Made by a program: the position numbers and the translations under genes. This document shows positions 4,377 through 53,200 of a stretch of 64,000 bases of DNA, piece after piece. The DNA lies in contig JAQQWL010000006.1 of the NCBI GenBank assembly GCA_038363925.1, forward strand, positions 3,514,501 through 3,578,500, written 5' to 3'. Below the pieces are notes generated by a model. That model was not told the origin of the DNA. It made no database searches and saw only the letters and a list, made by a program, of their open reading frames with translations. The first letter of the stretch is position 1, and each line of letters starts with the position of its first letter. The stretch comes from Apiospora phragmitis (Eukaryota > Ascomycota > Sordariomycetes > Amphisphaeriales > Apiosporaceae).

Positions 4377-5515
4377 TGCTTCACTCTTTTCTTGTCGCGC
4401 TTCGCATGGAAGACTTGCCGGTCATGGTGGAATGGGAGGGTTTGGGAACGTCGAGGATAGGTGGTCACTGAGGCGGTTCAGCAACAATCAGCTTGCATCT
4501 CGAATTGGTGTTTTTGGGTACCTAGCACCCCAAGACTTTAATTTTCAGTGATCTGCCCACTATACCAACATACAAACATATGTAAATGCAGTCACCCATG
4601 AACACAACGTACAGTCAATATATATGTCAAGTACGGCTCCAAATCTACTTTTCCGGCATACAGGAAGTCGTTATTGATCGATGCATTATCAACAACTTGA
4701 GATACCTACCTTCATGCAGCAAGTGACCTCACAAGTCGCAGGGAGTTAGTTGGCCGGCGTCTCGGCGGATGCAGCGACCGAGATCCAGGGCAGCTACAGG
4801 TGTGCCCCTCTTATCTCTGGGTTTGGGGTGCCCAGTGCCTCTTTTAGCACTGTACCTAAGGTTATCATGTCAGCATGTCGAATTGAAGGCGCGAAGTCGG
4901 GAGCGTTTTCACAATTATGGGGCGGCTCACCCTTATCTTTTATCGGTTGTTTGACAGTGGTCTGGCGCTGGTCTGGCGCTGCAGCTCCCATGCGCTTACC
5001 TCCCAGGTACCTTTTTCCGGGAAAGGCACATTAAACCCATTTGATCATCTGTATTAGCAGCACCGGCGCAGCGCAGCCTTGTTCCCAGCCTATTACGAAA
5101 GTCTGCCACCCTCTCTCCCGCCTCGGATCGCCTCTCGTTCACCCTCCAAATGCCTTTCAATCCGCTCTTGTTGACTTCGAAAGAAATGGTGCCTCTTATA
5201 CATTCATGCCTATTCTCACCCTGTTAGACTTACCTAGTTCAAATAAACAGCATCTCCGATCCTGTTTCCTCGTAGAAGCTCCGAAAACCTGTTGCTTCTT
5301 ATTCCTTCCTTAGCCGACGAGAAAATCAGGTGTTGCAGCGACCGATCGTTTCTTCACCACCCCCCCCCCCGACGAACTACGATTCCGTCGAGCCTCTATT
5401 GTTACCGCGACTCTAGCTTTTCGACGGCTATTACACAGATTGGCCCCAGCGTAGCCGTCTTGTCCAAGTAGCGATCCGATTGTGTATCGCGGTATCGGCC
5501 GCATCGCTGCTTACC
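4377..5515. promoter_or_regulatory. Divergent intergenic region (TRAPPC11-like / Rxt2)
   Basis: This 1.1-kb spacer lies between two head-to-head genes and should hold both promoters and 5' leaders. The Rxt2 side (about 5050-5400) is pyrimidine-rich, with an 11-base C run at 5360-5370. A short direct repeat (TGGTCTGGCGC) lies at about 4960-4980. I see no convincing ORF or RNA gene. Confidence 0.45.
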
Positions 5516-7149
5516 ATGGCCTCCTCCCAGCAGGTTCTCTTCGCCGAGACTGTTATAGCGATGAAGAAGGCGATCAAGCGGAAAGCATATGGTAAATAAT
5601 GCACCGATCAACACCTTCGGAAGCCAGTGGCTAATGCGCTCCGGTACGCCCTGCAGAATCCGACTCAGACGAAGAAATTGACCACCATGGCAACCGAGGC
5701 CAGAAGTTAAAGAAGCGTGCTAGATTTGTTCACGAAGGCCAGCTCGCGCCCCCATCCGGCCCTGAAGTCTACAGAGAGGTAAGTCCCTGTCAGGAGTGCC
5801 TCATCACCGCATGCCTCTAATCACCTGCCTTTAGATTGTCAACCATGGCGGCTACGAAAGGGCCATCATTAACCGAAACCCACCCTTGGTCGACGAAGAA
5901 GGCTACGAGCCTGAAAGCGACGACGAAGATTACGAAGAGCGAATGCAAGAAATAATGGCCTCGGCATTTCAATTCAATCCTTATGCTAGCGTAAGGCTAG
6001 AAAGTTCGTCGACCTAAGTCCTCGCGTGTAACCAGCGTGTCACTAATGTCGACCCTCACAGCTATACTCGCACCTCTTACCTCAGTGACCGATCTCTCCT
6101 CACACCCGACGCTTTCTCGCCCTTATACCTCCAAGACATTAACCGATCTCACAACACAAGCTTGCAACATAATGCATAAGGAAAATGCAGCGCTATGGAA
6201 AGTGAAACATCTCCTTACCAAACTCACGGGCGACCATGTGTGGGTTCCCTGTGAGCTCATGATTGGGCCCAACGATCTCGATATGTATCGCGACGACTAC
6301 CTCACCAACGGCACGTCTAAAGCTTCGGTATCTTCCGAGACCGCGCAGCTGATGCTGGAAAGAGCACTAGGCGGGGCAAGCACAAATGGACAGCCCTCAG
6401 TAGATGGAGAGACACCGTCCGCGAACAAAGACGGCATGGGCTCGCGTAACGAGGAGAGCGATGCAGATGCGGATACCTCGATGGTCGATGGGGATGGTCC
6501 TCCCACTCCCAAAACCAACGGTAACAAGGCCGCTGACGAAGTTGGCGATAATGCGAAAAGGCCACCAGAAACCGACGAAGACTCTCGGCCGCCTACGGGA
6601 ATTCCGCACCAAGGAGAGGATGGTGGCTCACGGCCAGACTCGAAGATGTCAGATACTCGGGGCGGACCTGTGACGAATGGCGATTCCAGTAACGGCAACC
6701 TTCTCCAAAAAGCTCTGCTCAATGGGAAGGATGTAAATCGTATGGCTGAAAGTACGACTTCGACGACCTCGGACGGGCTTGATGAGATGTTTATTCATCC
6801 TATATTCATTGCGCCACGCTCGGCTCACCCTGATCGAGACCTGGGTATACCAGAAGCTGAGGCGGACGATGTGCGGCGGCTTCTGCAGCTTTGGGTGCAG
6901 AAGCAGGAAGAAGTATGCCGCGGCGCAAAGCGGTTGTATGAAGGCCTACTCCGGGCCGACAGACTTAGGAAAACTGTTTTCCAGTGGTCAAAGTATGAAG
7001 CACATTCAGGGCCCAACCGCGACATGTCGGACGGCGAGGATTGGTACGATAAAGAGGAGTGGGGTCTCGACGAAGACCTTAAGAAGGGCCAAGACGAGGA
7101 GGAAGAGGACACAACACAAACAACCAAGAAGACGAGAACACGAAGGTAA
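5516..7149 (+). CDS. RXT2: Rxt2-like subunit of the Rpd3L histone deacetylase complex
   Basis: Homologue of Rxt2, a subunit of the Sin3/Rpd3L histone deacetylase complex acting in the nucleus on transcription. Four exons join in phase: 5516-5591, 5657-5778, 5835-6003 and 6062-7149. The conserved N-terminal Rxt2 domain covers the first ~150 residues. It includes the acidic patch after KRKAYESDSDEEIDHHGNRG, the RARFVHEGQLAPPSGPEVY block, the LAPLTSVTDL block and HKENAALWKVKHLL. A low-complexity Pro/Ser/Asp/Gly-rich middle follows, then a conserved C-terminal helix (residues about 390-450, VRRLLQLWVQKQEEVCRGAK) and an acidic/basic tail. The ATG at 5516 begins the conserved MASSQQVLFAET start. 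No frame break is seen. Confidence 0.9.
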
Positions 7150-44327: not shown

Positions 44328-44412
44328 TGGCGTCACCCGGAATCGAACCGGGGTCTACACGGAACAGTTGTGTTTCCACAACGTGTTGTACTGACCACTA
44401 TACTATGACACC
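44328..44412 (-). tRNA. tRNA-His (GTG) with a 13-nt intron
   Basis: The cloverleaf can be drawn on the minus strand. The acceptor stem GGTGTCA pairs with TGACGCC (one T-G wobble), with discriminator A at 44328. The anticodon stem ACACG/CGTGT encloses 20 bases, a 7-base loop TTGTGGA plus 13 extra bases after position 37/38, as expected for a nuclear tRNA intron. The T-arm is GGTTCGATTCC. The anticodon GTG reads histidine codons. CCA is not encoded. Confidence 0.92.
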
Positions 44413-44866: not shown

Positions 44867-45728
44867 CTAGTTGTCTTCCTTGAACACGATGCAGGTTTCC
44901 TGGTCATTCCCGATCGAGTGCTCGTCGAACGTAACCACAAGCTCCATATCGTTCCCCATCACGTCCGCACTGACCCCAACACACTCCATCTCCTGCGGTT
45001 CCTCATCCTCTTCGTCTTCACCCTCGCCCGTGAGAAAGGCCGTCCTGTGCGAAAACAGCTCCGTCGTCTCAGTTTCATGGCGCTTCACGCGGATCACATG
45101 GACTTGGTACGTGTACACGACACCAGGTGCCGTATTGTAGCTATCCATCCTGCTTCTCTCGCGGCTCGCAGTAGCGGCGGCTCCCACTTCGAGAGGTATG
45201 GGCTCAGCTGGAGCCGGCCGGGACATATCTGCCAGGCTGACGCGGTTGAGGTAGTCTCGGAGAGCACTTCAAAGGAGTCTCTCGCTACCCGCAGCCCAGA
45301 AACAATGTAGAAAGGACGGTTGCCGAACAAGCTCTGCTTCATGTGTTTTTTCACGGGGGCTAACTCCACAATCTTTTGAAGAGCATCCGCGGCCAAGCCC
45401 TTCTCGAAAATTCGTATTTCGAGGTCCACCTTGCCCAATGACTTGATCTGGCTATGGGACAGGTTGGCGCTCCCAGACGCTGAGGCTAGGTCGACGACCT
45501 TTGCGAAGAAACTCCCACCTATTGATCGCTTGGAGCCGCCGTTGTGGCGATGGTCGGTCTCGGTGGTGGTAGTGACTTGGGCAATGCGATATCAGGGAAT
45601 TCATCGTTTCTCAGAGCGGTGAGAATACGGGTTGGCCTGCTGGGATGTGAGATCACTGTTCCAAGTGCCAGTTCTCCGTCAGGCAAGAAGCTAAAGTGGG
45701 GTGGCAAGAACCAGGTCCTTTGCGTCAT
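44867..45728 (-). CDS. Probable fungal gasdermin-like pore-forming cell-death protein (HET-Q1/RCD-1 type), frame-disrupted
   Basis: Intronless gene for a protein of about 287 residues. I assign it to the fungal gasdermin-like family on its size, its N-terminal TWFLPPHFSFLPDG-type start, its beta-rich alternating sequence in the last third (VVYTYQVHVIRVKR) and its location beside a subtilisin-like protease gene. In known members (HET-Q1 with the HET-Q2 protease of Podospora), a protease removes a short C-terminal segment and the N-terminal part forms membrane pores, killing the cell. Here an acidic run at residues about 236-245 is followed by ~42 residues, a plausible inhibitory tail. Two single-base losses are seen at about 45571-45577 and 45240-45245; the total length fits exactly two lost bases. 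The family call rests on recognition by eye and on context, so it should be treated as probable. Confidence 0.6.
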
Positions 45729-46174
45729 GGCGATCTATCAGACGGATTAGATCCTGTGCTATGAAGGATCGGATATCTGATGATAGTAAGTCCTGTGTTA
45801 AAGATCGATGTAATATAGGAAATGCAAGTTGTGTGTCCGCGCTGGTGCCTGGGGCGAAACATCTATATACTCCCGGTGACACAGCCTTGACAGCATGACC
45901 CAATCAAGGCCGTCGTGAAGCCAGTCCGGTCAGCGTGGGGGCTAAACGGACTTTTCAACCGTCCATCTGGCATCAGTGATGCATATCGACGTTACCAGCG
46001 ACGGCATAGATATACTAAGACTTTTGCTAATATCAAAATTCAGTAGTGGTTGGCGGCTATTGATGTCTCCGAAAGAGCGCCCATCATCATCATCCAGTCC
46101 ACCGCCATACACCCTTCCGATTATCTCTGAGTACCCGTTACCGGGTCCCTGTCATGCATTCAACATTATCTCTG
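45729..46174. other. Spacer between the gasdermin-like and protease genes
   Basis: A 446-bp spacer between two same-strand genes. It should hold the protease 3' UTR and the promoter of the gasdermin-like gene. No ORF of interest. Confidence 0.5.
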
Positions 46175-48970
46175 CTATCGCAAACGGTCGAAGTCCTCCA
46201 TACATCCCAAAATTGCACGATATCTTGCATCATGGCTTCCACAATCCCTCCAGAACGAAATTGGATCAACCCATAACTGACGATTAGTGCACCTTGCTTT
46301 CATATGTTTGAACAAGGCCTCCATACCTCTCGTTTCCCACACACGCTGCAGTTTCGCGCTGTCACGTTCAGTGATTGAGAAACTACCTAGTGCAGGAAGA
46401 GCATCGACGTATGAAAGAAACGTGGCACTTATCCCCGCTGCGACTGCTGTGGCGACTGACGAGCCGGGCTCGATTGCATTGGGGTACTTTGTGCATACGC
46501 CAGAGAGAAATTCTCTAGGTAAACTGTCTCCGTAGGTACCCAGGGCTACAGGGCCGTATTCGCTATGTATGGAACTGCTCTTGAGGAAGTAACCATAGGG
46601 ATCGGTGGCGTGAATGGACATGACAGAATCGAGCCGGGCAGGGAAACATTCGACGTCGGATGCTGAGTTCCCAGCACTGGCCAACAGGATTATGGATTTT
46701 CCTCGAGTTTTGTTCGCTTCTTGAATGGCATTTTCTATGTCTATGTCCGCCCTGGGAAATCCAAAAGACATGGAGATGATATAGGCCTTCTGTTTGCCGC
46801 CCGCAGCCCATTCGATAGCCTACTCATACATCTTGGTTAGTCGAAGCCTCTGAAAACGCCAGTACTCTACAGATCATGATCTTCTCAAACCTTTGCAATT
46901 GATTGCTGCCTTCCTTCTAGCTCCTTCGAGTTCGCTGCAATCCGAGCCACAACGATTGTGGCAAAAGGAGCACACTTCATTGCCAGCCCGATCATGAACG
47001 TTCCATGGCCACAGTTGTCGACCATGCCTGACCCGTCTACGAAGTCCTTGAACTCAATTCGACTTGTTGCATCCTCGCCAAACTCTGAGTGTAGCAAGGC
47101 CGGATCCAATCCAGTGTCGAGGATTGCGATGACAGGCCGCCGGCTGCCCTTTGTCACAACACTCGTTCCAATTCTCCAAAGGTTGGAAAGCCACTGTATA
47201 GATTGTGTACTACGCCCCGCATGGAATTCCGCTAATGGCTGTGTTGGCTGATCCTGGCGATACTCATTTGATGGTCTATTCTCATGCCTTCTTCTGATGT
47301 ATAATGTCGTCCTGTCCGGGTTTCCGAATCCCTCATTCACCAACCAGGCCAGGGGCGGACGGCTTTGTTGAAGATCAGACGTTTCCGCTCAAGGATCCCG
47401 TCCTGATTGTTCCCTGTACCGTTGATGATGTTCTCTCTGTGATGGCTTGGCGACTGCTCCTCTCATGCAGGGTTGAAGGCTTGATCTCGACGCAAAAGCT
47501 CACAACTTCGTCGAAAACAGACTTGTGCTCGAAACCCTTCCATACAGTACTTTTTAGTTCTCTGAAACGGTTTCGTGCCAACCTATGGTCGCTGTTCACT
47601 CGCGACATATAGGTTACGCACGGCAACGTGGGGAAGGTTTCACCAAGTCCTATCTCGAGAAGCAATATACCCAGGTCGAAGATGCGAGGGTAGCTGTGAG
47701 TCATCAATTCGTCCCGTATAAATTCCTGCGACTCGTCGGCATCGTCTTTTCCAGATGGAAACGATAGGTATGCCCGTAAGGGCATGCTGGCTGGCGAAGA
47801 GCCTCCACCATTGTCCACTGGCATAAAATATATGTTGCTGCTTGTCCACTTCATACGCTTCAGTTTCGAATCGTAGAACATCATATAAGCTCGTGCAATG
47901 TTATATGCTAAGACAAGCTTGTCTTTGATCTTGAGGTCATAATATCTGAGCACGCTGGAGAGTGACTCCCCACGACCGGGCCTGGGGGCTAGTTCAAGAG
48001 AGCCGTATCTTCTCAACTTCGAAAGCCCTTTAGACGGTACCAAAGCAACTGGTATTCGAACGTTTGACTGAAGATCCAGAATTGAGCAGAACCTTTGGTT
48101 ACATATAGGTTCAGACTCAATGTTGGAGTTATCATCTGACCATCTTGCCCACGTTAGTTAAGGATCAGTGGTGTAGGAATCAATAAGCCGAACACACACA
48201 TTTCTAACAGAAAGTCTTGCCAGTAAGCCATATCCATCGTTGATACCAGAAAGTTGAATGTTGGGATTTTGGAATTTTCCTTTGCTAGGCATATTCTCGT
48301 TGGATGCCACTGCGATTGGTCGCTATGGCTGTCTCCCTCATCGACATGCAGAGTTGGATCGCATTTGGTGTGGTGTTCAAGTGCCCTAAAGGTTTCATTG
48401 CTGAAACTGTCTAGTCTGTCCGTTGATAATCGATTCTGGATGTTCAAAGGAAGGCTATTCCCGTCGACAAAAAGATCTTTGTGAAGCTGCGTGCAATCCT
48501 CCTCCAAAGCGCGCTTGAGGCCACTCTTCCCCGGTTGACTGAAGAAAGCTTCCAAGCGATCGGCCTTCAGCAATGAGGTTCCAGGTTCGGTATTAGCTGA
48601 AAATAAAGCATCACAGTCGCTCGTGAGGTGGACATGGTGATCATCATGTGACCGCTAGCGGTTCAATTATCAGTGAGTCTTGAAACCATTGTTGGAATAT
48701 TAGTCTTTCCCTTGTTTCACTTACACGGTAAATACCAGCCAAAGTCCCCAAAATCCTTCTGCATGATTTTTCGATTTCAGGGTCGATCTGATCAGCTGGA
48801 AGAGAGTTAAGACCTTCGTTGATCAGGTGCAGCCTTGTAGCGATATTACCAGCTTCTTTTCGAACATGTCCAGGCAAACGCGATGGAGAGAGAGTGCACA
48901 ACCTGAGAAGAGTCCCGGATATGGGCAAGGACCATTTCATCAGTACGGCCGAGCCAGATGGATGCGGCAT
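46175..48970 (-). CDS. DUF7580-like (pseudokinase-like) plus subtilisin-like S8 protease, frame-disrupted
   Basis: Two-part intracellular protein of about 866 residues. Exons are 48970-48725, 48654-48200, 48143-46891 and 46819-46175. No signal peptide or pro-domain is visible. The N-terminal ~550 residues resemble the fungal DUF7580 region: helical start, then LVLAYNIARAYMMFYDS, MKWTSSNIYFMP and YPRIFDLGILLLEIGLG, reminiscent of a degenerate kinase C-lobe. The C-terminal S8 domain keeps a full triad: Asp in AILDTGLDPALL, His in NCGHGTFMIGLA and Ser in PGSSVATAVAAGISA. Two one-base losses, at about 47459-47465 and in the run at 47353-47356, lie in the linker between the two parts. The architecture and the place next to a gasdermin-like gene match HET-Q2-type activating proteases; that role is inferred. 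Confidence 0.75.
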
Positions 48971-49320
48971 TTCTCGATTCTAGTCTGTGTGAGCAGCGTG
49001 ATAGTCTGATGTGCAACAGTATAGAAGGGAACCGATACCGTTGATGGATATAGGCTGTGGCTGACCCCGCTCTTGTTCAATGAAAGCATCCAATAGTACA
49101 GAGTCGACCTTGACGCTTATCTTGCAAGACTTGCCTATCTTATTCTCTGAAGACTTTTCGTTCGTCTACATATACCTGTACAGGTTTTGTTGACTTGAGC
49201 CGAGCAACATATGCCAGTTGGGCTATGCTCCTCCCCAAGACAAGACCACGAATGGCTCTTTGTAACTTAATGATTTGGTCCCTTAACCCTCACCTCACGC
49301 CAGAGCTATAGCCAGCCAAT
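48971..49320. promoter_or_regulatory. Divergent promoter region between the protease and NLR-like genes
   Basis: A compact 350-bp spacer between head-to-head genes, so the two promoters overlap or are shared. No clear TATA box is seen on either side. A first coding exon of the protease gene could also lie here, because the start at 48970 is uncertain. Confidence 0.5.
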
Positions 49321-52300
49321 ATGGAGCCAGCCAAGGATTTTACGGCGGAGAACCGGTTTTCGTCTTGGGTCTCCGATCTGAGTAAGATCTGCCTCGCTAA
49401 ATTTGACCAGATCATGGGTATCTGTAGCTCGGACGACGATGCGGAGCTTCTCCAATATCGCATAGCAGACTTCAAGTTGTGGGCTGACGGCGTCGGCGCT
49501 TTGGCGAAGCCTGGCCTCTCCTTGGACAAAAGATTCCAACACCGACCACATGATTTGGAGTTGATAAAAGCCGTCTTGATTATGCTTGCCAATTTCCTGG
49601 AGGACGTTGTATTTGAGATAACAAATCATGGCTCGAACAAGACGCTCAACAACGTCGATTCATCCATCAAGAATCTAGCAATGATTGGGATGGCGATCCG
49701 CCGTACTGGAAAAGCGTCACGTCGGCGAAGAGCTGACGAATCCTTTGATCCCATCGACTACCAGGACCTAAGACAGCATCTTGAGTGTATTGTCCTACTT
49801 CGCCCGAGTGCGGATCAGCCTCGATTTGAGGAACTTAATGCTTCGGAACCAGACGAGTCCTTAGCTTCAAGCTTGACAAACGAACCACACTCAAACGAGG
49901 AGATTGTATCGATCTTGGATAAACTTGCGGCTTCTAGGATGAGCAACCTTGCGAGCTCGAAACTGAGTAAGGTTCAAACTCGACTTATTGAAGCGAATTT
50001 GAGAAGAAGGCTTCGATTTTCGTTGGCCCAGAAAAGGTCGCAATATGCTAAAATGGAGCAAGAAGTACAGGCAAACGAAGCTCCGGAGGAAGAGCAGTTG
50101 GTTGACACCAGAGTGGAAACCCAGGACCCAACCGTAAAGCTGACACTTAGGTCCAAGTCGAAAGACAAGGAACGAGGCAGCCAAAATATCGGTGAACTCT
50201 CAGTTCCCTCAACAGCAACACAATCTATGAAGTTTTCACTGTCTGGAAAGAATACCCATAAGATCGCGCCATCGCAGATCTCTTCGATCGGTGCCGAAGG
50301 CGAATTCCCTAAGCCCCCAAAGGAAGCCCCAAGTCGGTTGGTCACTAGATGTCCTTGTTGTTACCAATCTTTGCCCGTCGAGGTGACTACCGACCCCAAC
50401 GCATGGAGGTAAGTCTGAACGGCTTACTGGTTGATCATAAGTGGCAAAATGTAGCTTACACATTCTAGACAACATCTTATCAAGGACCTGTGTCCATACA
50501 CTTGTATTGCACAGCACTGTCCTGCACCACACCTCACTTTCGTCACTCGAAAATAGTGGGAGGATCACTTCCAGATAGATCACCCACTTGAGTGGCAATG
50601 TCTTATGTGTGACGAAGATGTGGTGTTTACAGTGAGAGAAAGCCTGGAAAACCACGTTGGTGCCAACCATCAGGATGCATTAGCGAATCACTCGCTAGCT
50701 GATGTTGTTTCCTGGTCCGCAGTGCAGTCCATGGGTGTCCAATGTTGTCCTTTGTGTTCGCCTCATGGACCAAAGGACTCCCCGGAGCTGGTCGATCATG
50801 TTCTCCGCCACGCATGAGTTTGCCCTCCGCGCTCTCCCCTGGCCGTATCATGACCTTGACAACTTGAACAAGCCAGTAGGGACTTGGAGTCTCCCGGAAG
50901 ACGGGGAAGAAGCCAATAGACTCGAATATTGGATTCATTCGACGTCACACGACACCCAAGGGGTTTACAGCTGTCGTCCTTTGAACGCCCCAATAAAATG
51001 CTACCAGTGGTGAAAGACTCGATAGCGGATATAGATTACTTTGCTGGGAATGAATACTTTCGAAACGAGTCTCCAGAAAACTCTTTGCGCGCCTACCAAA
51101 GCCAAGCCTCCACCACCAAAGATAGCTCAACCAGCACCAAGGGTAATATACAAGCCGCGGCCAAGTTATGTTACTTATATTCAGGACTTAGGCTAATAAT
51201 TGTGTATAGGTGATGTACCTCAATACTATATACCGCTGCTCCAAAATTGCAATTTCACTGGGCAGAGTGCGATTCTCGAGGCGCTCCAGCAGAAACTGTT
51301 TATCTACCAAGACTGCCAGAAGCTTGCTATCGTAGGACTTGGCGGCGCTGGCAAGACCGAGATAGCGCTGCAGTTTGCCTATTGGGTGAAGGACTATCAG
51401 CCAGACTGTTCCATCTTCTGGGTATCCGTCGCCAGTCACACCAGTTTTGAGCAGGCATACCTAGAGATCCGAAAAAAGCTTCGTATACCTATAAATATCG
51501 ACGAGAAAGACCCGAAAGACACAGTGCGAAGGTACCTCAGCTCGGATGAGGCCGGGCGATGGCTACTCATAATCGATAATGCGGACGATATAAAGACGGT
51601 ATTCGGATCGATCGACGGCACAGCAGGCATCAACCAGTTTCTTCCAGAGAGCGAGGGCGGTCTCATCCTGTTCACTACCAGGTCCATCGAGGTGAGCTCA
51701 CGGGTAGCACAAGGTAACGTGATCCAGCTGTCTGAAATGGATATATCGGAAGCCGTGAGTTTATGAAAGAATTCGCTCCATCGGACGCGGTTAGTCGAAG
51801 ATGAGGCTCTAGTGATCGAATTGCTAAGACAAATTTCATACTTACCCTTGGCGATTGTACAAGCTGCGGCGCATTTTAATCACAACGGGCAACTTTCAAT
51901 GAGGGATTACATAGACTTATGTCGCGATACTAACCGGAACGACTTACATAAGACGATGGTGTATCAAGGAATTCCGAAAGAGCTGGCAACGGCGTACATC
52001 GCATCGTTCGAACAGATTCAGAATACGGATAGTGATGCGGCAAATCTACTGTCGTTCCTTTCGTGTATTGAGTCAAAGGCTATCCCGCGCTCGCTCCTCT
52101 TAGAACCGATGAGGGAGGAAAAGACAGGTCGTGCGATCAACATCCTGTGTAGCCATAATTTTCTCGCTGTCCGGGAAGATAACGAAATGTACGACATGCA
52201 CAGTCTAGCACATTCAGCGGTGAAGCTATGGATCACAGAAGCATCGCGCCAGAAGGAAACGACGATTCGGGCTCTCCAGCGTCGTAGGTCGGTCTTCCCC

Positions 52301-53200
52301 TGGCCCGACCGCGCGAACCGCCGGGTATGGCAATCATACCTCCCTCATGCCCTCCGGCTCTTAAATAATAGTGAGGCGTGTTACGTGGACGAGCGATTCG
52401 ATTTGTTTTATCAGGTTGGAATATACTTGAATGAAGGCCGGCATTTTAAGGATACTATACGATGCTTTGAGGAAGTTGTTCGATGGAGAAAGGCCTATTT
52501 GGCGAATGACTTCGTTCGACTAGCATCAGACCATGCTCTTGGAAGCGCATACCTTGACGATAGACGGATTCAAGAGGCGATTGAGATACTCGAACAAGTG
52601 GTGAAGATACGGGAAACGATACTCGATAAAAACGAACACACTCGACTTACGTCAGAATACGAGCTGGCGAGCGCATACCTCGCCGGTAATCGGATCCAAG
52701 AGGCTATTAAGATACTCGAGCATATAGTCGAGGTACGGAAATCGGCACTCGACGAAAAGGATCCCGATCGATTAGCTTCAGAATATATGCTCGCGCGCGC
52801 ATACCTCTCCGACAGACGGACCAGAGAAGCGGTTCAAATATTCGAGCGTATAGTTGAGATACAAAGAACAAAGCTCGACGAAACGGACCACGATCGATTA
52901 GCGTCAGAACACGAGCTCGCAAACGCATACCTTTCCTATAAACGGACCGAAAAGGCGATTGAGATATTCGAGTACGTAGTAAAAATAAGGAAAAAAACGC
53001 TTGACGAAAAGGATCACGATCGATTATCGTCAGAATATGCCCTCGCAAGCGCATACCTCGCTAACAGACGGATCCGAGAGGCAATTGACATCCTTGAATA
53101 CGTCGTGGAGGTGGAAAATCAACTTTTTGATAAAGATGACCCGAATCGATCTGTATCCTTGGATTTACTGAGAGATGCACATTGGCGTTTAGAAGGCTGA
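49321..53200 (+). CDS. NLR-like STAND protein: helical/C2H2 N-terminus, NB-ARC, TPR repeats; disrupted
   Basis: Putative signal-transducing NTPase of about 1250 residues. Exons are 49321-50408, 50469-51142 and 51210-53200. Residues 1-180 are helical. A charged linker follows, then Cys/His clusters of C2H2 type (RCPCCYQSLPVE, PYTCIAQHCPAPH, WQCLMCDEDVVF, CCPLCSPHGP). The NB-ARC domain has Walker A GLGGAGKTEIAL and Walker B RWLLIIDNADD, then LPLAIVQAAAHF and the winged-helix-like part. The C-terminus carries six TPR-like units of 42 residues. Disruptions are an in-frame TAG at 50554-50556, a lost base at about 50812, a lost G in the run at 50960-50963, and an in-frame TGA at 51764-51766. The two stops cannot be explained by homopolymer error, so the allele may be inactive. 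Such proteins act in fungal allorecognition and defence-like cell death. Confidence 0.75.
52425..53180 (+). repeat. Six tandem 126-bp TPR-coding units
   Basis: Units begin at 52425, 52551, 52677, 52803, 52929 and 53055, with an exact 126-bp period (42 codons). Units 3-5 are the most alike, sharing blocks such as GATCGATTA and the GCATACCT boundary. The outer units are more diverged. This is a kinesin-light-chain-like TPR array. Confidence 0.9.

Follow-up and report, generated by a model that had tools for sequence, protein, structure and literature searches.

The window, i.e. the entire analyzed stretch of 64,000 nucleotides from Apiospora phragmitis, contains three adjoining genes: a predicted gasdermin gene and a protease gene on the minus strand and a receptor-like gene on the plus strand. 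Places and strands agree with those first noted in a preliminary description of this DNA. The protease and receptor-like genes, for which a shared promoter region had been proposed, are indeed arranged head to head with 350 bp between them. The features are:

44867..45728, minus strand: predicted fungal gasdermin gene, putative executioner, in three reading frames in the assembly
45728-45573, 45597-45229 and 45235-44873, minus strand: gasdermin pieces matched by alignment to protein P0001
46175..48970, minus strand: DUF7580-Peptidase_S8 gene, candidate activating protease (the start codon is a proposal)
48724-48655, 48199-48144 and 46890-46820, minus strand: proposed introns of the protease gene
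47426..47965, minus strand: DUF7580 domain match (E 3.3e-18)
46400..46828, minus strand: Peptidase_S8 match (E 4e-11)
47116-47118 and 47005-47007, minus strand: catalytic-type Asp and His, respectively, upstream of the Peptidase_S8 match
46667-46669 and 46460-46462, minus strand: Asn and Ser, respectively, within the Peptidase_S8 match
48971..49320, no strand: intergenic region between the protease gene and the receptor-like gene
49321..53200, plus strand: receptor-like gene with a C2H2 module, then NB-ARC, then TPR repeats
50409-50468 and 51143-51209, plus strand: proposed introns of the receptor-like gene
50554-50556 (TAG) and 51764-51766 (TGA), plus strand: in-frame stops of the receptor-like gene
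near 50.81 kb and 50.94-50.96 kb, plus strand: frame breaks of the receptor-like gene
49321..51142, plus strand: conserved N-terminal C2H2 module
51272..51763, plus strand: NB-ARC domain with P-loop GLGGAGKT (51335-51358) and Walker-B-like LLIIDNADD (51563-51589)
52532..53117, plus strand: TPR array

Judged from the predicted fold and the sequence profile of its relatives, the small gene belongs to the fungal gasdermins. It has no single open reading frame. Residues 1-52, 45-167 and 166-286 of P0001 are matched in three frames with no space for introns between them, and assembly error may account for this. P0001 (Apiospora marii, 287 residues) is the nearest intact relative, with identities of 79, 72 and 75% to the three pieces, and is itself counted among the 71 related proteins found. 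The 287 residues initially given for the window protein are the length of P0001 and not of any open frame in the window. Because the broken pieces alone gave no useful match in the PDB, P0001 stood in for the broken gene in fold modelling; PEA-15 matches of the pieces (best E 0.038) were taken as chance. All ten PDB chains matched by the P0001 model at E ≤ 0.001 are gasdermins, with RCD-1 on top. Profile A1, built from 38 of the 71 relatives, has four matches at E ≤ 1 among PDB sequences, all of them RCD-1 (best 6.2e-6); the single P0001 sequence matches weakly (E 0.29). HET-Q1 (9uv9) is matched neither by P0001 nor by profile A1. Thus, profile search and structure prediction, both by way of relatives including P0001, bear out the early assignment of the small protein as gasdermin-like. 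In the model, an acidic stretch at residues ~230-241 is poorly predicted and the C-terminal piece that follows is moderately confident (elements 248-283, block pLDDT 75-88). In size this piece resembles the 40-residue stretch cut from HET-Q1 by HET-Q2 (PMC10989679).

The middle gene fuses DUF7580 with Peptidase_S8 (both Pfam matches). Asp 47116, His 47005 and Ser 46460 sit in subtilase-like motifs. Like the S8 proteases of the Q2L type, the gene combines a Peptidase_S8 domain containing Asp, His and Ser with a position adjoining a gasdermin gene. Its coding sequence is interrupted by a frame change at about 47.38-47.48 kb, which may be assembly error. The product, a DUF7580-S8 subtilase, is a candidate gasdermin activator that is most likely acted on by the C2H2 protein.

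The receptor-like gene contains NB-ARC (E 3.4e-13) and TPR_12 (E 3.1e-23) matches in Pfam, i.e. the NB-ARC domain and superstructure repeats of a fungal NLR. The NB-ARC motifs are preserved. For the N-terminal C2H2 module, 72 relatives were found, and all 31 residues that are invariant among the 35 aligned ones are kept in the window pieces. Pfam has no family at E ≤ 1 within 49312-50409, so no known N-terminal effector class is found there. Among 19 starting profiles given in PMC9815663 there is no zinc finger, and neither 'C2H2' nor 'zinc finger' occurs in its main text. The predicted fold of the module gives 63 matches to the PDB at E ≤ 10 and none at E ≤ 0.001. Its Cys and His residues would also be compatible with DNA binding. 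The tails of relatives in 20 genomes in which the C2H2 gene is linked to a gasdermin are ankyrin, ankyrin-WD40, TPR, WD40-TPR or NACHT-like-ankyrin, or none is recognized. On sequence comparison, the conserved partner is therefore the C2H2 module, and the NB-ARC-TPR half, regarded at first as essential, is exchangeable. The gene content described at the outset (a C2H2-type N-terminus with NB-ARC and TPR; DUF7580 and S8 domains with Asp, His and Ser) is found at the locus. The protease gene, on the other hand, is not intact owing to its frame change, and in this assembly the supposedly complete NLR contains TAG, TGA and two frame breaks.

These lesions raise the question of a decaying locus, in which the receptor gene and perhaps all three genes are pseudogenes, comparable to the pseudogenization proposed as a route to allorecognition for het-Q1/het-Q2 in PMC10197012. 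Both in-frame stops are at conserved positions. Two paralogues align gaplessly across the TGA and an A. marii relative aligns straight across the TAG, and the two stops may be real. Placing the TGA inside an intron was rejected, given the gapless paralogues and a visible GT-AG stretch that is only 40 nt long and frame-shifting. RIP-type decay was likewise rejected, as the composite of dinucleotide indices, scored in 2-kb bins, is negative throughout the window including the locus. Frame breaks were at one point considered proof of pseudogenes. This was dropped after a control with essential CCT (chaperonin) and HSP70 genes, whose frame is broken by the same assembly at least 6 times in 29,271 scored nt. 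Adjacent match rows were scanned by eye for such breaks and each one was verified by translation; their number is therefore a minimum. The trio has 5-6 frame breaks compared to 1.5 expected from this benchmark (P 0.018 and 0.004), which prove little, given that essential chaperonin genes are broken in this assembly as well. Six of the eight benchmark rows flagged with a stop were inspected, and every stop there is in an intron-like or frame-break stretch. Part of the frame damage of the trio may be sequencing error, and the receptor gene of this strain may be dead. With the two conserved-position stops and the excess of breaks on one side and the broken chaperonin genes, the 31 retained invariant residues and the retained NB-ARC motifs on the other, decay falls slightly short of an even chance.

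Alternatively, the C2H2 protein could be a regulator of protease transcription acting on the shared promoter and not a receptor. The many conserved Cys and His residues and the head-to-head layout would fit this role, as would one paralogue (L037), which has classical zf-C2H2 fingers further along (residues about 521-661). The tails, however, are the repertoire of fungal immune receptors (ANK, WD40, TPR, NACHT-like, NB-ARC), P0072 has no Pfam family at E ≤ 0.01 and one relative, P0132, joins the C2H2 module and DUF7580 in a single protein. A regulator is thus unlikely.

The surroundings of both flanking genes were compared among 25 named genomes holding a gasdermin and a C2H2 gene. In 21 of them both are on a contig of equal size; one was dropped because its locus tags are 6,622 apart, which leaves linkage without contrary tags in 20 of 25 (nine of these judged from contig size alone, with contigs between 57 kb and 5.1 Mb long). 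The two genes are 2-3 genes apart in 11 of the 14 genomes with comparable tags, Trichoderma semiorbis, T. guizhouense and Orbilia brochopaga among them. As a control, none of 2,854 cross-species gasdermin/C2H2 pairs shares a contig size. In five genomes gasdermin and C2H2 module are not together. Family distances of gasdermin and C2H2 gene are correlated in the 20 genomes (r 0.91, with 0 of 10,000 permutations as high), for which shared ancestry alone could suffice. Misfiled fungal contigs were found neither with profiles A1 and A2 among genome contigs nor with A1 among viral contigs. The expected synteny is hence present for the gasdermin and C2H2 neighbours. An S8 gene between them is seen only in the window and in a second trio of A. 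phragmitis, and evidence elsewhere consists of the flanking pair; none of six locus tags of the middle gene of relatives was found in the literature.

The second trio (C5:3.928-3.935 Mb of the same genome) comprises a C2H2 module, DUF7580, S8 and an RCD-1-type gasdermin. It is a very different copy from the window trio and its pieces also change frame. Manual reading identified the Asp, His and Ser motifs of its S8 domain. Its gasdermin matches RCD-1-1 with E 5.5e-23 over residues 4-165, and its C2H2 module reaches 168 bits, compared with 68 for the runner-up among loci outside the window. The RCD-1-type gene was first noticed by eye and then confirmed by search. It escaped a tblastn search of six pair loci that used the 71 gasdermin relatives as queries; not finding gasdermins at other loci is therefore weak evidence.

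C2H2 and DUF7580 genes are head to head at ten loci in this genome, two of which have DUF7580 matches below Pfam's cut-off (C11:8.76 and C1:0.13 Mb). This arrangement is present at 9 of 12 loci found first by C2H2 and at 9 of 11 found first by DUF7580, including all eight above the cut-off. For the former count, rows of one place were joined and matches to the query tail only, or only to the classical fingers of L037, were omitted; for the latter, 12 match rows correspond to 11 loci. At C2:1.76 Mb the C2H2 match came to light only on inspection of the sequence beside a DUF7580 match. No DUF7580 gene is detectable at three C2H2-first loci (C5:0.07, C5:0.88 and C11:7.62 Mb) and no C2H2 module was found at two DUF7580-first loci (C11:8.64 and C16:1.32 Mb, both below the cut-off). 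Within reach of the queries used, gasdermins are present at both DUF7580 loci with S8 and at no other DUF7580 locus. A third gasdermin-like ORF (C6:2.558 Mb; RCD-1-2, E 1.4e-5) has neither partner detectable by profile within the surrounding 19.8 kb. In this genome the C2H2 module thus pairs more widely with DUF7580 genes than with gasdermins. An ordinary two-gene gasdermin/Q2L pair beside an unrelated third gene would agree with the share of fungal gasdermins clustered with a protease (about 80%) or specifically with S8 (about 63%; PMC10197012), with the frequent fusion of receptor repeats to the protease in known Q2L proteins and with the five genomes lacking linkage, but is already disfavored and highly improbable in view of the linkage in the other genomes, the second trio and the recurrent C2H2/DUF7580 pairs.

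Membership of the third gene is thus backed by the neighborhood conserved elsewhere and by the second trio, which points to a three-part circuit and not to chance neighbors. The locus probably (roughly 0.6) represents a single copy of a conserved fungal cell-death cassette of three genes, leading from receptor to subtilase to gasdermin pore. The C2H2 protein would be the receptor, with a helical, zinc-finger-like N-terminal module and an exchangeable sensing tail, here NB-ARC-TPR. Its most likely target is the DUF7580-S8 product of the divergently transcribed gene, and signalling from receptor to protease is assumed. Once triggered, the subtilase would cut the gasdermin in the acidic linker and remove the short C-terminal piece, and the freed gasdermin domain would form pores leading to cell death. 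Of the sensor-protease-executioner circuit suggested earlier, the gasdermin, the protease and the membership of the third gene are retained; an intact NLR and NB-ARC-TPR as its core are not. A wider generalization is evenly balanced: filamentous fungi may have widespread, many-copy head-to-head pairs of C2H2 receptors (with ankyrin, WD40, TPR, NB-ARC or NACHT tails) and DUF7580 transducers, with a gasdermin gene placed next to those transducers that have gained a subtilase, giving a trans-acting three-protein sensor-protease-pore circuit laid out like the animal inflammasome pathway from unrelated parts.

A 2025 review (PMC12881547) regards the nature of the stimuli that act on putative sensors in gasdermin pathways of fungi as a major open question. 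A conserved receptor-like gene with swappable tails beside a protease is a named candidate for this sensing step. The trio separates a conserved part (the C2H2 module) from a changing part (the repeats), and it suggests that C2H2/DUF7580 gene pairs form a larger family. Gasdermin-protease pairs are already known; the conserved third gene is apparently new as far as the literature covered goes. In that literature no paper combines the terms DUF7580 and fungal, and such pairs could carry other names.

HET-Q1/HET-Q2 of Podospora anserina resembles the trio in a gasdermin of ~280 residues, a subtilase partner gene and a short C-terminal inhibitory piece. HET-Q2, however, is an S8 protein of 388 residues, with het-Q1 and het-Q2 as idiomorphs, whereas in the trio S8 is joined to DUF7580 and a conserved receptor-like gene is present as third member. 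Q2L proteins share the same kinds of sensor repeats and a protease adjoining a gasdermin, but their protease is fused to NLR, ANK/TPR/WD40 repeats or predicted kinase-like domains; in the trio a separate protein, which has a conserved C2H2 module of its own, carries the repeats. Neurospora crassa RCD-1 has the same fold as the P0001 model, and the gasdermin of the second trio is RCD-1-type, but RCD-1 is described as killing when two allelic variants meet and not through proteolysis. The mammalian pathway consists of a separate NLR sensor, the protease caspase-1 and the pore protein gasdermin D. Its protease is unrelated and the C2H2 receptor module has no known relation to it, but if the proposed model is right, sensor, protease and pore protein would be separate in both, by analogy only.

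The window holds a gasdermin, a protease and a receptor-like gene side by side. The locus was read on both strands, its pieces were scanned, relatives and paralogues were searched, two intact relatives were modelled, and essential genes of the same assembly served as a control. The source genome (52.67 Mb, 19 contigs) was searched as well.

44867-45728 (-): gasdermin gene
46175-48970 (-): DUF7580-S8 protease gene
49321-53200 (+): C2H2/NB-ARC/TPR receptor-like gene (receptor); its conserved N-terminal part, the C2H2 module, spans 49321-51142

Of the small gene's frame pieces, the longer two match no Pfam family at E ≤ 1, and the pieces give no useful match in the PDB. One frame piece retrieves a single protein, P0001 of Apiospora marii, the species of the nearest named relative (72-79% identity by piece). 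The 287 residues ascribed to the small protein in the preliminary description are the length of P0001; the window gene itself is spread over three frames and leaves no space for introns. The search with P0001 yielded 71 proteins at E ≤ 0.001, P0001 itself counted. Those with an organism name are nearly all from ascomycete fungi, among them Trichoderma, Fusarium, Colletotrichum, Podospora, Xylaria, Orbilia and Aspergillus. As a single query against the PDB, P0001 finds RCD-1-1 weakly (E 0.29). A profile built from 38 of the 71 relatives gives four matches at E ≤ 1, RCD-1 every time (best 6.2e-6). The P0001 model from the gasdermin alignment has a mean pLDDT of 76, and all ten PDB chains matching it at E ≤ 0.001 are gasdermins, with the RCD-1 pore on top (7.6e-9). 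Thus, the assignment of the small protein to the gasdermins holds. The model predicts a body, then an acidic stretch (poorly predicted) and, at the C-terminus, a short piece. HET-Q1 would lead one to expect this arrangement; according to the accessible text of PMC10989679, HET-Q1 loses 40 residues after F238. HET-Q1 (9uv9) gave no sequence match to the gasdermin queries in the PDB search. P0003, a fungal-type gasdermin filed as 'Candidatus Bathyarchaeota archaeon', sits on a contig of 2 kb and is probably fungal contamination. Window positions 44330-44412 (-) resemble a tRNA gene by eye; ARAGORN in its bacterial setting gave no report.

The protease gene encodes DUF7580 (E 3.3e-18) followed by Peptidase_S8 (E 4e-11). 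Its second S8 exon matches subtilisins in the PDB (E 2.2e-5); for the DUF7580 part, which leaves a kinase-like impression, the PDB gives nothing below E 0.97. The described Asp-His-Ser triad is present (Asp in AILDTGLD, His in NCGHGT, Ser in EPGSSVAT), together with Asn in SAGNSAS. The reading frame, however, is not intact: the DUF7580 match ends before the profile does and its likely remainder lies in other frames, which indicates a frame change near 47.4 kb.

The receptor and the protease are arranged head to head with 350 bp between them. The first exon of the receptor is open over ~362 codons and matches no Pfam family; cysteine/histidine-rich pieces, NB-ARC and TPRs follow. In this assembly the gene is not the complete NLR it was taken for: it is interrupted by an in-frame TAG, an in-frame TGA and two breaks of the frame. 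Across the TGA, two NB-ARC-TPR paralogues whose N-termini are different align without interruption. The C2H2 module pieces retain 31 of the 31 residues that are invariant among 35 aligned relatives (of 72 found). The nearest named relative of the module is again from A. marii (62%). Its model (whole-protein mean pLDDT 60) shows a confident helical bundle at residues 7-175 and a zinc-finger-like part, and matches nothing in the PDB at E ≤ 0.001. Very similar transposase-looking ORFs (by eye) lie within ~2 kb of both NB-ARC-TPR paralogues, at 5353-6486 (+) of excised locus L026 and on the other strand of L027 (299-1330 by conversion). Because the repeat unit of the TPR arrays (window 52485-53160, L026, L027) keeps codon phase, long ORFs occur there in several reading frames of either strand, and the length of an ORF in these arrays is no sign of a gene.

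For the neighbourhood in other genomes, scoring covered only the 7,996 candidates with the most words in common with the C2H2 module and gave 72 relatives at E ≤ 0.001. Contig sizes and locus tags were compared wherever an organism was named (64 of 72 rows for C2H2, 45 of 71 for gasdermin). Both genes occur in 25 genomes and lie on equal-sized contigs in 21, or 20 after dropping Gaeumannomyces hyphopodioides (tags 6,622 apart); across species, 0 of 2,854 pairs do. Tags are comparable in 14 genomes. The genes are two or three apart in 11 of these and far apart in Fusarium poae, Magnaporthiopsis poae and G. hyphopodioides. The gap is two genes in nine of the 11 (seven by plain tag numbers, two with tag steps of 10 and 100 counted as one gene) and three in A. 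marii and Neonectria punicea. For the other nine of the 20 linked genomes the basis is the equal-sized contig alone (57 kb to 5.1 Mb). In Ilyonectria destructans and Dactylonectria macrodidyma, the two genes are on separate contigs. Where the gap is two, a single gene lies in the middle; in the window it is the protease, and in the other genomes, where the tags alone point to it, it may be a protease. The predicted synteny extends to the gasdermin and the C2H2 module but not to NB-ARC, found in 0 of the 20 linked C2H2 relatives. Their tails vary: ankyrin, ankyrin + WD40, TPR, WD40 + TPR, NACHT-like + ankyrin, or none recognised. For the unlinked relative P0124, NB-ARC is listed in the relatives search and absent from the domain scan at E ≤ 1e-4.

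Within the source genome, C2H2-module matches adjoin DUF7580 matches in a divergent arrangement on opposite strands. A DUF7580 partner was detected at 9 of 12 C2H2-first loci, and a C2H2 partner at 9 of 11 DUF7580-first loci (8/8 above the Pfam cut-off). Both starts combined give ten pairs. No DUF7580 partner is detectable at the C2H2-module-like loci C5:0.878 Mb (L045), C5:0.072 Mb (L047) and C11:7.62 Mb (L052). Two further loci were found, one with a gasdermin and one with a gasdermin-like ORF (C, contig; L, excised locus).

C5:3928309-3934850 (L036; 3.928-3.935 Mb): second trio of C2H2 gene, DUF7580-S8 and RCD-1-type gasdermin
C6:2558271-2558888 (L042 1772-2389), (-): third gasdermin-like ORF, RCD-1-2, E 1.4e-5

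In the second trio, S8 follows DUF7580 (above cut-off in the genome scan, just under it piecewise) with Asp/His/Ser motifs by reading, and the adjoining ORF matches RCD-1-1 residues 4-165 (E 5.5e-23). Therefore, the genome has the same three parts at two places, and the two gasdermins belong to very distant types. Both DUF7580 loci that have a subtilase yielded a gasdermin; at the remaining DUF7580 loci none was found. The RCD-1-type query hit nothing beyond the second trio; window-type queries hit the window and one weak third candidate. As window-type relatives missed the gasdermin of the second trio, an even more divergent one may have escaped detection. The C6 ORF is a different kind of gasdermin neighbourhood: a TPR-like ORF lies ~1 kb away (TPR_12 E 2e-6, under its cut-off), and neither DUF7580 nor the C2H2 module was found nearby.

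The interruptions may be genuine or assembly errors. Five control genes of this assembly are also broken: three HSP70-family genes and two that we take, from reading the sequence, to be CCT-theta and CCT-beta.

Chaperonin/HSP70-family controls, each with a frame break and no room for an intron
C15:486505-488053 (L023)
C4:139469-140901 (L024)
C13:1354177-1355966 (L028)
C13:597161-598678 (L029)
C1:2614969-2616817 (L030)

The scored sequence of the control genes (29,271 nt) contains no fewer than 6 frame breaks; the assembly has indel errors, which bears on every pseudogene call in this genome. At that rate 1.5 breaks are expected at the trio locus and 5 or 6 are observed (P 0.018 or 0.004). A stop is flagged in eight of the benchmark rows. 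Six of these were inspected, and there every stop falls in a stretch that looks like an intron or holds a frame break, so the receptor's two in-frame stops look graver than the frame breaks. We consider it slightly less likely than not that the receptor is truly dead in this strain.

In the accessible text of the literature on fungal gasdermins, gene clusters and DUF7580, no description of the C2H2 third gene was found; Clave et al. 2022 may list this neighbour. Gasdermin-protease clusters, receptors with a protease fused in and kinase-like fusions are known, and two- or three-gene clusters are mentioned in general terms (PMC10197012, PMC12881547, PMC10989679, PMC11138114, PMC9815663, as far as their accessible text goes). 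P0132 of Thelonectria olida, whose genome does not appear among those with listed gasdermin relatives, joins the C2H2 module and DUF7580 in one protein and thereby fuses two halves that are separate head-to-head genes in the source genome. In the preferred reading of the trio, the C2H2 protein would sense via its tail and control the DUF7580-S8 protein, which would cut the gasdermin, whose pores would kill the cell. The pore step follows from gasdermin family membership; receptor control of the protease and cleavage of the gasdermin are inferred from the layout, its conservation and the HET-Q2, Q2L and animal pathways.
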